64,000 nucleotides of DNA from Photobacterium sp. CCB-ST2H9 (lineage in GTDB: Bacteria > Pseudomonadota > Gammaproteobacteria > Enterobacterales > Vibrionaceae), in assembly GCF_023151555.2 (NCBI RefSeq), contig NZ_CP100426.1:372001-436000 (forward strand), read 5' to 3'. Below the pieces are notes generated by a model, which was given only the letters and a program-made list of their open reading frames with translations, was not told the DNA's origin and made no database searches. Shown piece after piece: positions 58,878-64,000 of the stretch. Within the stretch, counting starts at the first letter, position 1; each line of letters begins with the position of its first letter. A program made the translations under genes and the position numbers.

Positions 58878-59014
58878 AAGCAATCCTGATGAATATCCAT
58901 TTGAATTACTGATAAGCATACTGGAAATCACAGTGGCTTGAACAGATTGAAACGTGAAGCCGGAAAGAAAAAGGCAACTCAGGTTGCCTTCATGGAGTGA
59001 GCCAGATTTTGAAA

Positions 59015-59488
59015 TCAGTCCTGAGGATGTTCAGGTTCAGCCGGGCTGGCTGGCTTGGCAGGACGATGAGGCTCTGTCTGAGGTTCAGCAGATTCGAAAA
59101 AAGCCAGATCACGGACATTTTTTTGTGTCACAACAGCACTGAATAAGCCTAAAGCGAATGTAATTGCGAAAAATCCCTTCTCATTTAACGCAAGTGTACT
59201 GGCATTCCAGAGTCCAATCAGCATTAAGGCACATGAAATGATGACACCGGCAATGACCATAGTTCTATACAATGCGGTGACATTGATACCTTCCATCTCA
59301 TCCCGCACTGTTTTTTGTAACGTGATGACACTGAACAGGCCAAACAGCAGGACTACAAGATAGTAACCTTTTTCATTGAGCTGGAGGTTGGCATTGAGCA
59401 AACCGACACCATAAGCCAGCACAGCCAGTGCAAGTGCAGCCCAAGACGTGATGACAAAAGCCTTGGTTGGCTTTAATGATACGTTCAT
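59015..59488 (-). CDS. YiaA/YiaB-family inner-membrane protein
   Basis: A 157-residue protein with two repeats of a two-helix unit. Each repeat holds an LNEKG(Y/F)(Y/F) loop (LQLNEKGYYLVVLLFGLFS and LALNEKGFFAITFALGLFS) and a following QK(T/N)VRD, a pattern typical of YiaA/YiaB. Four membrane segments are predicted. The C-terminal tail is rich in Pro, Glu and Ala (TEPHRPAKPASPAEP) and is longer than usual. The family has no assigned function. AGGAAT precedes the ATG. Confidence 0.88.
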   Translation of the reverse strand: MNVSLKPTKAFVITSWAALALAVLAYGVGLLNANLQLNEKGYYLVVLLFGLFSVITLQKTVRDEMEGINVTALYRTMVIAGVIISCALMLIGLWNASTLALNEKGFFAITFALGLFSAVVTQKNVRDLAFFESAEPQTEPHRPAKPASPAEPEHPQD

Positions 59489-60159
59489 TGAATATTCCTG
59501 TAAGAAAATGGTGGAATGAGCAACAGGCAGAATATAAGAAGCCTTATTCTTCTCAAGGCGGCAGGTTGGTGACGTTTCTTTAGAGGCAACAGGGGGTTAC
59601 AAAAGGCAGCTGGTTATTGGACTAGGGTTGATGCATTGGTCTGAGCCGGGTGAGACTCTTTTTAACTTGTGTTATGTCGGGTCAATTTGGAACTTCAGAT
59701 AAATATCATTGCGTTGAGGTGATATTTCCATGGCTTTTATGTGGTCTATTTCATCAATATTCATTGTTCATGAAGATATATATTATGAGGAAGTTGTGAT
59801 GCCTGTTGTGACTATTGTCTGGTGCCAGAACAAATCCAATCAATATTTATGAATCATTTTGGAACACTGCAATCAATTTCTTGTTTGCGACTTGATGATA
59901 TGATGGTGAAATATTTAATTCTTATAGATGGATAGATTGAAAGGATATTTCCAATATCGATATATTATCATTCGTTGATGTTCAAATCGAAAGTATGGAT
60001 TTGATCTCATTAAATTGTGGTCGTACTTTGTATTTCATATTGAATTTTCGAACCAATCGTCAGAAATAGGAATGCTACCTTCTTCTTGTATTTTTCCTGT
60101 GGACATAATTGATACTCAACTAGTTGAATAATAATTAATTTTGTTAATTTGAGGAAAAC
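59489..60159. promoter_or_regulatory. Long AT-rich leader before the secreted/cytochrome gene group
   Basis: About 670 bases, increasingly AT-rich toward the first gene of the cluster. A perfect 12-base palindrome TCAACTAGTTGA lies at 60116-60127, 33 bases before the ATG, where an operator would be. One 40-codon frame at 59730 has a good ribosome-binding site. Nothing else is recognised. Confidence 0.5.
59730..59852 (+). CDS. Possible 40-residue small protein
   Basis: An ATG at 59730 with GAGGTGA seven bases upstream opens 40 codons before TGA at 59850-59852. The product MAFMWSISSIFIVHED... begins hydrophobic and continues mixed, with one Cys. It lies inside a long AT-rich leader, where such frames arise by chance. 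The ribosome-binding site is the main support. Confidence 0.25.
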   Translation: MAFMWSISSIFIVHEDIYYEEVVMPVVTIVWCQNKSNQYL

Positions 60160-61461
60160 ATGAAAAGGACTCACATTATTCAGCTGAGCGCTATCGCTTC
60201 AGCTTTGCTTAGTTGCGCGGTTACGGCCACACCAATGGATCCAAATGATGATAATGCTTACCGTCATTTTCCGGGCAGTGTATCGGCTGAATTAGAAAGT
60301 AAATACTACCTGTATAAAGATTCTCATAAAAAAGATCTGATGTGGTATGTGCCTAAATCTGGTTATGTTGCATACCGTGGTACCGGGGACAATACCCGAC
60401 CAAACTTCAATGCCTCCAGCTACATCCCAAGGTTTGGTACCTGGGCTGCACTCCGTCCGGGAGAAGCTCAAATCCGGATGGGTGGTGCGTTCAATACGAT
60501 GGGACGTGTTGAAGATGTCCAATTCTTGAAAACCGAAGCAGAAAAAGTGGGTTTCAGTGTCTCTCCTGCTGTGGTTACGCGAGGAACGGCGTTATTTGTT
60601 GTTGATGGTATTGATGCAAACGCGGATGGACGAATTGACGTTGAATGTGTGGATGAGCCGTTAACAGTGACGGATGCATTAGGTCAGACGATCAATGTCA
60701 CGATAAATAACTGTTACGTGACAACGATTGATGGCAAACAGCAGCCTACAACGATCGTTGAAAAGGCATACGCGAAAGTACCAGGCGGAAGAACGAGTGC
60801 ATCTGTGAATGTACCATTCCAGTTGGTGACATTACCTGATAATGACATGACGAATGCCATTGAGAATGATCTGGCGGTTGGGAACAGTCTATCGCCGTAC
60901 TTCAGCCTGATTGTGGACTGGGAACTAGAGACGGAAAGAGAGACGCGTGCAGCTCGTATTACCGTGGACTGGAACCAGACATTTGAGCAAGCCCACACAT
61001 TCGCTGCTTACCACAACTTTGCCTGTGTAGACATTGAAATCCAAACCTTCTTCAAGAAGTTAGTACAGGAAGGAAAAGGGGTTTATGTCGAGTATTACAA
61101 CCCTGAAACGAAGCAGTACGAAGAGCAAGCGCCAAATCAGGCTGCATTTATTAAAGCTGTGGAAGGTATTCAGGCTGAATTGCAGGCAGAGCTGTTTGAC
61201 CAGATTCAGGAATATAGTCAGTCGCAGTTAGGGAAGGTGGATACAAGCACCAACTCAATGTGGACGCTGCGTGCAAACTATGAAAAACAAGTGCTGAAAC
61301 GCAACGAAACAAGAACCATCAACTGGAATCCAGGCATGTCAATGGAGACCGTTCAAACTGAAATGAGTGTCGATTGTGTTGTTGGCGGATTCGGAACACC
61401 TGTTGAGTGGAGTACAGATGTAGGTTGTCACGCGATTGTTGAAGATGCAACTCAACCGTAA
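60160..61461 (+). CDS. Secreted protein of unknown family, paralogue of the gene at 63705
   Basis: A 433-residue protein with a signal peptide cleaved near VTATPMDP. The N-terminus of the mature form shares the pattern ELxSKxYLYxD...LxWxVPKxG with the protein starting at 63705, so they are paralogues. Residues 152-160 read DANADGRID, the spacing of an EF-hand or dockerin-type calcium loop. Cysteines occur at CVDEP, NNCYV, FACVDI, VDCVVGG and GCHAIV, possibly disulfides. The C-terminal half is predicted beta/alpha with a helical stretch (AVEGIQAELQAELFDQIQEYSQ). No known family. It starts a group with a second secreted protein and a multiheme cytochrome. Role unknown. Confidence 0.7.
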   Translation: MKRTHIIQLSAIASALLSCAVTATPMDPNDDNAYRHFPGSVSAELESKYYLYKDSHKKDLMWYVPKSGYVAYRGTGDNTRPNFNASSYIPRFGTWAALRPGEAQIRMGGAFNTMGRVEDVQFLKTEAEKVGFSVSPAVVTRGTALFVVDGIDANADGRIDVECVDEPLTVTDALGQTINVTINNCYVTTIDGKQQPTTIVEKAYAKVPGGRTSASVNVPFQLVTLPDNDMTNAIENDLAVGNSLSPYFSLIVDWELETERETRAARITVDWNQTFEQAHTFAAYHNFACVDIEIQTFFKKLVQEGKGVYVEYYNPETKQYEEQAPNQAAFIKAVEGIQAELQAELFDQIQEYSQSQLGKVDTSTNSMWTLRANYEKQVLKRNETRTINWNPGMSMETVQTEMSVDCVVGGFGTPVEWSTDVGCHAIVEDATQP

Positions 61462-61478
61462 CTGAGATGATTCTGAAG

Positions 61479-61554
61479 TTACGGAATACACCGTAATGAA
61501 GCGTTATCTCATTGTGCTGCATAAATAGTATCTAGCCCACGTTGTTTGTGGGCT
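61479..61554 (+). other. Two intergenic hairpins in the secreted/cytochrome cluster
   Basis: TTACGG/CCGTAA at 61479-61496 and AGCCCAC/GTGGGCT at 61534-61554 both lie in the 109-base gap between the first two cluster genes. Neither has a T-run. They could stabilise the upstream mRNA, giving a higher level of the first secreted protein. Confidence 0.5.
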
Positions 61555-61570
61555 ATTCCAAGGAATACCC

Positions 61571-62488
61571 ATGATAAAATTCACTCATTTACTTGCGAGT
61601 GCCGCATTATTGACGGCAGCTTCAGCTCATTCGAGCGATTACCAATTGTCATTGTTAGATTTTAATTCCACGATCGACAATGGTGATATCGTGTTTGCAC
61701 CATTTAAAAATACCACGCGTGGTACTGGTTATGTTTGGTTTCGTAATTATGAATATGATTACATTTTACCTGTCCCGGGAGCTTACAGAAATAAAACGCT
61801 GACAGTCAGCTTCGTTCCCAGCAGTATTCAAAGTGGTGAATTTACGGTATTTGCACAAGAAAATAATATTTCTCCAAGCAGAAAAACGCTCGTTCCTGAT
61901 GATGCGGTTCTTTGTCAACCGACCCAAGCGCTGACAGAATTGCTCACGACTTTTGAATATTCTTCAGTATCGACTCGTCCTCCGGGTTATCCGAAACTTT
62001 GCAGTCTGGTGATTCGTTACAATACAAGTGCCGAGAAAGAAGCAAAGTTGTTCGAACTCGTGGATACCAAACAGTTGATGCATGCGAAATTTGCGTTGTC
62101 TGATCCGAGTAGTCAGCCTGCGCCCGGTGTATACATTGAAGTGCCAGCCATAGTAAATCAGTTGGTGGACCAAAAAGTGTTAGAGCAGGATTTACCTCTG
62201 CCAGTTGACCCAACTGAGCCTGGTATCCCTCATGTAGATATTGGCTGGTATGGACTTGACCAGGGTATCAATTTTTATTCGTCTCATATCGATCCAAGTC
62301 TGTTTGGATTTGAAGGTGAGATCGTGGATAAATCTTTGTTGTTCCAGCGCTGGACACAGTTTATTGATCTGTTTCAGACCATCGAAGGTCAACCCGCGTA
62401 TTGGGTTATTCCGGAAGAACTTGCAGCGAAGAAAATCGTTATTTCAGAACCTGTACCTTCAGCGCCATTCATAGAGGTCTCGTACTGA
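61571..62488 (+). CDS. Secreted protein of unknown family
   Basis: A 305-residue protein with a signal peptide (IKFTHLLASAALLTAASA) cleaved near AHSSD. CAAGGAAT precedes the ATG. The mature part is predicted beta-rich with a proline-rich linker (LPLPVDPTEPGIPHV); two cysteines (VLCQP and KLCSL) may pair. No domain is recognised and no heme motif is present. It is followed by the cytochrome gene after six bases, so the pair is almost surely co-translated. It could be a partner or carrier of the cytochrome, but this is inference. Confidence 0.65.
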   Translation: MIKFTHLLASAALLTAASAHSSDYQLSLLDFNSTIDNGDIVFAPFKNTTRGTGYVWFRNYEYDYILPVPGAYRNKTLTVSFVPSSIQSGEFTVFAQENNISPSRKTLVPDDAVLCQPTQALTELLTTFEYSSVSTRPPGYPKLCSLVIRYNTSAEKEAKLFELVDTKQLMHAKFALSDPSSQPAPGVYIEVPAIVNQLVDQKVLEQDLPLPVDPTEPGIPHVDIGWYGLDQGINFYSSHIDPSLFGFEGEIVDKSLLFQRWTQFIDLFQTIEGQPAYWVIPEELAAKKIVISEPVPSAPFIEVSY

Positions 62489-62494
62489 TTTTCT

Positions 62495-63715
62495 ATGAAG
62501 TGTTTGATGACCTACTGTCGCTGTATGTGGGGGCGTTGCGTGCTGGTGTTGCTGCTGGGCGCAACGTTTTTCATGTCTTTCGGTTTGCAAGCATTCGAAT
62601 TCGATCAACGTTTATATAAAAATGCGATTGAGCAGGAGTGTCACGGTTGCCATTTTGAGAACCGAATGAAACCTGTTGGTACGATGCCGAATGGATCCCG
62701 AAAGTGGACCGATCAAAAATGTGTCGCCTGTCATACAGAAGTCGATGAAATTGCTCGTAATTACCGGAATCATATGCATGACCCGAGATATGTCGCACTG
62801 CCGGTGAAGGATGTGCGGCTACAGTCTATGGAGAAATATCCTCTTTCTTATTTGAATGCACCGGTCTGGCCAATATTCGAAAAGCAAACCGCAAGGGTAA
62901 ACAGAAAAACACTCACGAAATTTTTAAATGCTCCCCATGGAACCTGCAGTGAGGGGAAGTGTGCTGCACCCAAAATGATGGCTTATACCGGTATTCACGA
63001 AAATGACGTGATATCCCTGAGCAAGCACCTGGATGCCATTCCTGCAGAATCAGAGATGGAACGGCAGGGGGCGAAGTCGAAAGGTTTGAAGTTGTTTGAA
63101 AACAATTGTGTGATGTGCCATGGCTCAAGCCAGTTGACCGGTTATAACGCTGCTGCGATGAGTTTGTTTTCTGCGGATTGGATTTACCAGTATGCCAATG
63201 GGAAATCCGTTGAAGGGAGAACGATGCCGAAACTGTCTGTTTCTCGTCATGACGCATACGATCTCTATGCTTATTTTCAAGACGCTCGGGACAAAAACGA
63301 AAAGGATCTTGCTCAAGCAATTCAGCAAATAGATCTCAATTTCGATCAATTACCCAAAGGGACGATTCCACCCAAAGCACTGCATTTTATCTGGAATCGT
63401 TTATGGCGTGATGGGGGGTGTGTGCATTGTCATGGTATTGATGGTCGTGCCAAAGATGCTTTCAGCATGGCCAACAGGCGGGATATTGAACGTTGGTTGA
63501 GAGAAAAAGATGCAAAGACGTTATATCAGCGCTTGGCAATCCGGGAGAAAGAACAGAAGTTTGGAATGGGAGCGAACCCAGCAGGTATGCCAGCAACTGG
63601 CCGTCCGTTACCGAACCAACTGATTAAGTTATTGGGCATCTGGATAAAGTCGGGTTGCCCAAATGAAGAAGATGAAATGATTTGCAAGGATAAATGGATT
63701 TCCCATGAGCAATAA
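62495..63715 (+). CDS. Four-heme secreted c-type cytochrome
   Basis: A 406-residue exported protein with four CxxCH heme-attachment motifs: CHGCH (about residue 49), CVACH (76), CVMCH (205) and CVHCH (309). An N-terminal membrane-targeting segment (VLVLLLGATFFMSFGLQA) precedes the first. The third and fourth motifs head class-I-like domains with probable methionine ligands (GRTMPKLS, GMPATGRPL); the first two lie close together and may be a diheme unit. Additional cysteines (CSEGKCAAP, SGCPNEEDEMIC) could form disulfides. It should act in the periplasm or outside the cell as an electron carrier. It overlaps the following gene by 11 bases and lies six bases after the preceding gene. Confidence 0.85.
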   Translation: MKCLMTYCRCMWGRCVLVLLLGATFFMSFGLQAFEFDQRLYKNAIEQECHGCHFENRMKPVGTMPNGSRKWTDQKCVACHTEVDEIARNYRNHMHDPRYVALPVKDVRLQSMEKYPLSYLNAPVWPIFEKQTARVNRKTLTKFLNAPHGTCSEGKCAAPKMMAYTGIHENDVISLSKHLDAIPAESEMERQGAKSKGLKLFENNCVMCHGSSQLTGYNAAAMSLFSADWIYQYANGKSVEGRTMPKLSVSRHDAYDLYAYFQDARDKNEKDLAQAIQQIDLNFDQLPKGTIPPKALHFIWNRLWRDGGCVHCHGIDGRAKDAFSMANRRDIERWLREKDAKTLYQRLAIREKEQKFGMGANPAGMPATGRPLPNQLIKLLGIWIKSGCPNEEDEMICKDKWISHEQ

Positions 63716-64000
63716 TATTTTAAAAAACACACTCCATTCTTTGATATTGATATCGGCATCTATCAGTGCCGCGATTGCTGCACCAATTGATCCGTCAATC
63801 AGGAATGTTGAAGCAGAATTTACCAATGAGCTGGTGAGTAAGTTTTATCTGTATGGCGACACCGAAGATCCAAACCTGATTTGGTTTGTTCCCAAATTCG
63901 GGACGATTGCAAGAGACATCACCGGGTTTAATCAGCCGGAATTTGATATTGGAAGTACATATAGTGAGCACCCAGACTACTTCCCGGGTGAAGAGCTGGT
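63705..64000 (+). CDS. Secreted paralogue of the 60160 protein (cut by window edge)
   Basis: At least 98 residues, open to the window edge. The ATG lies within the last codons of the cytochrome gene, an 11-base overlap. A signal peptide (ILISASISAAIAAP) precedes a mature start sharing ELxSKxYLYxD...LxWxVPKxG and a later GS..Y...P..F/PGE pattern with the protein at 60160. Only the first part of the gene is visible, so the full length and cysteine pattern cannot be compared. The repeat of one secreted family on both sides of a cytochrome suggests that the members act together. Confidence 0.75.
   Translation, partial: MSNNILKNTLHSLILISASISAAIAAPIDPSIRNVEAEFTNELVSKFYLYGDTEDPNLIWFVPKFGTIARDITGFNQPEFDIGSTYSEHPDYFPGEEL

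Follow-up and report, generated by a model that had tools for sequence, protein, structure and literature searches.

The window, a 64,000-nucleotide stretch of Photobacterium sp. CCB-ST2H9 (contig NZ_CP100426.1, positions 372,001 to 436,000), carries at its right end a run of four genes, all on the + strand, and stops inside the fourth. They encode P1 and P2, the c-type cytochrome CYT, and P1b, a second P1-type protein (Table 1). We find that this operon is real and conserved, and that it is undescribed by the searches made. Two of its three core proteins, P1 and P2, lack a named family, and none of the known systems that we tested fits. Two families without named relatives or recognised fold are tied to one tetraheme cytochrome across a wide evolutionary range, and that they stay together in a rare, mobile operon implies that a joint function is under selection. 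An operon of three to four genes lends itself to expression, deletion, and assay, so that the contribution of a dedicated extracytoplasmic cytochrome to these proteins is directly testable.

The original prediction, made from the sequence alone, had described a tight run of exported proteins, and its gene positions, the gaps of 109 bases between P1 and P2 and 6 bases between P2 and CYT, and the 11-base overlap of CYT and P1b were all recovered exactly in the coordinates of the open reading frames (ORFs). Judged by eye, the N-termini are of export type in 4/4 products. P1 and P1b share 26% identity across 439 columns (E about 1e-30), in agreement with the predicted paralogy of the first and fourth genes. 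P1 is 87% identical to its relative in Vibrio penaeicida although synonymous sites are near saturation, which argues for selected genes rather than chance ORFs; the ratio of nonsynonymous to synonymous divergence (dN/dS) of about 0.03 covers P1 alone, as dS for P2, CYT, and P1b is saturated and not computable.

To describe conservation, we defined the cassette as P1, P2, and CYT lying adjacent in identical order and on the same strand. Scanning genome contigs for P1 yielded 12 loci, in V. penaeicida, Cellvibrio, Algicola, Shewanella, Pseudoalteromonas, five named Myxococcota, a record under the name Comamonas sp. KCTC 72670, and an Oligoflexales metagenome-assembled genome, whose contig ends within P1. 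Profile searches show P1, P2, and CYT consecutive on one strand in 12/12, including two loci in which tblastn with the window's P2 alone had missed P2. Among 195 Myxococcota genomes, 15 carry P1, at 18 places, and all 15 carry CYT, at 16 places; P2 and CYT follow P1 at 16/18 of the P1 places, the remaining two being second copies without either. Within the window's family, P1 occurs in 4/329 genomes and CYT in the identical four. Of 369 sampled genomes from the class, the window's own was the only one with P1, and across the 227 genomes of the order of Algicola CYT was found in Algicola only. No CYT without P1 was seen among these 329 family or 227 order genomes. The cassette is also present on the Agarilytica rhodophyticola plasmid pSU1.

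When gene trees were built from 20 cassettes, those of P1, P2, and CYT had 14, 11, and 10 of 17 splits in common, compared with at most 3 for shuffled labels. Because the three gene trees agree far beyond the shuffles, we conclude that P1-P2-CYT is inherited as one unit, which is rare and patchy. Its hosts are gammaproteobacteria, Myxococcota, and Oligoflexales, groups that we take to span three phyla from the taxonomy of the named organisms. The Comamonas sp. KCTC 72670 sequence (L018) falls within the Myxococcota in all three gene trees and was counted in the phylum of Corallococcus; for this reason the name on the record is probably wrong. The cluster had been predicted to work as a system, and the conservation of its neighbourhood across genera and phyla, together with the lack of an established family for P1 and P2, speaks for that; the specific roles put forward (respiration with an unusual acceptor, redox modification of an external substrate, a surface structure needing electron transfer) are not distinguished by sequence.

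P1 and P2 gave no family match in Pfam, NCBIfam, or PADLOC, and no match by sequence in the PDB. Their predicted models (predicted local distance difference test, pLDDT, of 84 and 85) showed no convincing structural match, so that the earlier statement that these exported proteins could be placed in no family is borne out by family, PDB-sequence, and fold searches. None of P1, P2, CYT, and P1b matched the PADLOC anti-phage models at E values up to 0.1.

Comparison of P1 with P1b points to a candidate site. Across 36 P1 sequences, Cys163, 185, 289, 406, and 423, Glu276, Arg371, Asn373, Glu383, and Asn390 are invariant, and Glu293 (35/36) and His285 (34/36) are nearly so. Disregarding the signal region, 35/36 have an odd number of Cys residues (5 or 7); the exception is the orphan L051, with 8. 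All five P1b sequences retain Cys163, 185, 406, and 423 as well as Trp254 and Trp271, and all five have changed Cys289, Glu293, Arg371, Glu375, and Asn390; Glu276 and Glu383 are changed in four and His285 in three. The conservation suggests that the two outer Cys pairs form disulfides and that Cys289, which the P1 model places in the loop joining helices 271-284 and 291-304, is apparently unpaired. Such a pattern would be expected if the working site belongs to P1 and P1b supplies scaffold alone.

The four CxxCH motifs predicted for the exported cytochrome were located at residues 49-53, 76-80, 205-209, and 309-313 of CYT, and four are present in 21/21 CYT sequences examined. CYT combines a c3/c7-like diheme part with a class I heme domain, and after its fourth CxxCH comes a conserved GMP. 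Met161, His311, and Met365 are found in 21/21 sequences and Met244 in 20/21, and some of these residues may bind heme. One heme may be open, since the invariant candidate distal ligands (Met161, Met365, and nearly Met244) are fewer than the hemes. Assignment of CYT to the OmcA/MtrC decaheme family was rejected, with 21.1 bits against a cut-off of 209.3 and four CxxCH rather than ten, as was assignment to the cbb3 oxidase subunit CcoP (TIGR00782, 29.9 bits against 179.95). A Pfam scan of CYT at E values up to 10 listed 11 families, and MauG/diheme peroxidases were not one of them, although HMMER filters may hide very weak matches in such a scan. Nothing was found linking the cassette to alginate degradation.

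We tentatively interpret the operon, with somewhat more doubt than confidence, as a self-contained unit for an extracytoplasmic redox module, with electron exchange between CYT and P1. All four products would be exported by a presumed route, and CYT would exchange electrons between periplasmic electron carriers and P1, in a direction that we can likewise only presume. P1 would be the working partner, with a putative site in its C-terminal half comprising the unpaired Cys289, His285, Glu276, Glu293, Arg371, Glu375, Glu383, and Asn390 and the Cys289 region as its candidate redox center. P1b, keeping the P1 framework and having lost the site, would serve as a structural or docking subunit, P2 would be an assembly partner in a presumed complex, and lipoproteins encoded next door could anchor this complex to the outer membrane in other hosts. 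The fuller picture is doubtful as a whole: P1 would be a new kind of secreted redox protein whose site centres on an unpaired Cys, with a tetraheme cytochrome dedicated to it and with P2 and a paralogue lacking the site as assembly partners, and horizontal transfer would have spread the set through marine and predatory bacteria belonging to three phyla.

Several points weigh against the redox module. P1 and P2 contain no known cofactor motif, and electron transfer is something we infer. The alignment of P1b around the Cys289 region is uncertain, with inserts in P1b, and His285 is kept in two of the five P1b sequences. The conserved P1 residues may instead form a surface that binds P2 or CYT and performs no chemistry. 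Finally, three P1-type genes, the two Myxococcota second copies and a distant gene in Algicola, stand without adjoining P2 and CYT, which implies that P1-like proteins can do without a nearby CYT.

All three of these genes lie in genomes that also hold a full cassette. This would suit a maturation process in which CYT, as enzyme or electron sink, acts on P1 by oxidation or cross-linking, with Cys289 as one candidate position, and the mature protein then acts without CYT. MauG acts likewise on methylamine dehydrogenase, and the two cases share the idea of a heme protein that modifies an exported partner. A conserved, apparently unpaired Cys in an exported protein and a possibly open CYT heme are consistent with this explanation; however, the Pfam scan of CYT returned no MauG or peroxidase family, CYT differs from MauG in having four hemes, and no modified P1 residue is known. 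We consider maturation of P1 by CYT unlikely. That P1 is an antagonism or predation factor acting on other cells, which CYT merely activates or protects, seems highly unlikely to us.

Extracellular electron transfer, with the proteins built into a surface complex or fibre that carries respiratory electrons to an acceptor outside the cell, would make use of the four hemes of CYT with their c3/c7-like and class I domains, and of the three scaffold-like exported products without heme motifs; lipoproteins, moreover, adjoin the cassette in several hosts. In an MtrCAB-type conduit, the outer-membrane porin MtrB and the periplasmic decaheme MtrA are encoded together. CYT resembles the cytochromes of MtrCAB/OmcA conduits in being an exported multiheme c-type protein and shows a weak likeness in its N-terminal part (the 21.1 bits to TIGR03507; PF22113 in 7/13), but it has four hemes instead of ten, and the searches made show no relation of P1 and P2 to the known partners. 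No porin or other outer-membrane conduit was recognised in the neighbouring ORFs, which were read by eye only. The nanowire clusters of the OmcS/OmcE type, whose cytochromes polymerise into filaments, likewise place a cytochrome gene beside exported partners, but no sequence relation to them was seen. Myxobacteria, furthermore, are mostly aerobes. The low OmcA/MtrC score also speaks against this reading, and we consider extracellular electron transfer unlikely. The cbb3 oxidases share with CYT the class I superfamily of its third heme domain, but the cassette contains no oxidase genes.

Whatever the function of the proposed redox module, the cassette is sparse and horizontally moving. In the window's genome it sits on a 1.5-Mb contig, flanked on the left by a yiaA/B-type gene and on the right by a LysM protein gene, both on the opposite strand. 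Photobacterium GJ3 carries two tandem copies on its larger contig (L006:6221-14883), in which one P1 and one P2 are each split into two frames. The cassette site (59490-60159 and L002:7094-7370) precedes genes resembling glutathione transferase and DEAD helicase, and we compared the equivalent site in four regions (L091, L092, L094, and L093). In three other genomes of the genus, an 869-amino-acid LysM protein lies there together with tandem lipoproteins, two or three in number and each of ~200 amino acids; for one of these genomes no yiaA/B gene was located, and the LysM protein of G032, the sole one of the three scanned, contains a Tle1-like phospholipase domain of the type VI secretion system. 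At this site the LysM protein of GJ3 is short, and a DDE transposase is present. In the window's genome, the LysM protein has 392 amino acids and matches the N-terminal part of the 869-amino-acid protein. The cassette occupies the gap and would have entered by insertion or replacement.

The predicted AT-rich leader of 670 bases upstream of P1 was confirmed, with 34.6% GC compared with 48.7% for the window, and it contains a palindrome, TCAACTAGTTGA, which is perhaps not the one originally meant. Counterparts occur at the same place before P1 in V. penaeicida (TCAACGCGTTGA) and, in GJ3, ahead of one P1 copy out of two (TCAAGCGCTTGA). The cores differ among the three yet stay self-complementary and, since the position is kept while they vary in this way, the palindrome suggests a site for a dimeric regulator. 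The other GJ3 P1 copy has no counterpart, and the exact pattern had no match at any further locus among those then examined. Rfam gave nothing at gathering score within 59000-64000, and promoter- and terminator-like sites in the leader showed no excess over shuffled sequence.

Table 1. Coordinates of the cassette and its upstream features in the window
Feature	Position	Strand	Description
P1	60160..61461	+	433 amino acids, exported, family without name; model pLDDT 83.7
P2	61571..62488	+	305 amino acids, exported, family without name; model pLDDT 85.2
CYT	62495..63715	+	406 amino acids, exported tetraheme c-type cytochrome; c3/c7-type and class I domains (Pfam)
P1b	63705..64000 (window part); whole gene L002:5705-7093	+	462 amino acids, P1 paralogue, P1-specific residues lost
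Leader upstream of P1	59490..60159	+	AT-rich, non-coding, 34.6% GC
Operator-like palindrome TCAACTAGTTGA	60116..60127	strand-less	Perfect, 12 bases

P1b occupies the fourth position in the loci of Vibrionaceae, Algicola, Shewanella, and Pseudoalteromonas; in Cellvibrio and Agarilytica this position holds a remote P1-like lipoprotein. A small lipoprotein-like frame lies between P2 and CYT in 10/10 translated Myxococcota and Oligoflexales loci, as judged by eye. The gene after CYT encodes an RCC1-repeat lipoprotein in six Myxococcota-type loci (L012 to L016, L018), an assignment from visual inspection and clustering, for which Pfam was applied to L012 alone. Downstream of this lipoprotein, Corallococcus encodes two vWA proteins with a dockerin-like end (L012:16090-18122), and by eye one such protein was found in L013. 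A published study reports one RCC1 protein of M. xanthus, perhaps related to these lipoproteins, from outer-membrane vesicles (PMC4158809).

Orphan P1 genes with neither P2 nor CYT beside them were found in two Myxococcota genomes (L053:6035-7312 and L054:8634-9908). Their neighbours encode RCC1-repeat lipoproteins, a lipoprotein-like protein containing CGGCH, and a subtilase, the last from a Pfam search on L053. The distant P1-like gene of Algicola (L060:6303-7403) lies ~125 kb from the cassette and has no adjoining P2 or CYT. On pSU1, a gene just before P1 (L021:5404-7572) encodes a 722-amino-acid P1-type protein with inserted and C-terminal discoidin-like domains, detected by running Pfam on its near-identical database copy P0018; these domains hint at surface or carbohydrate binding.
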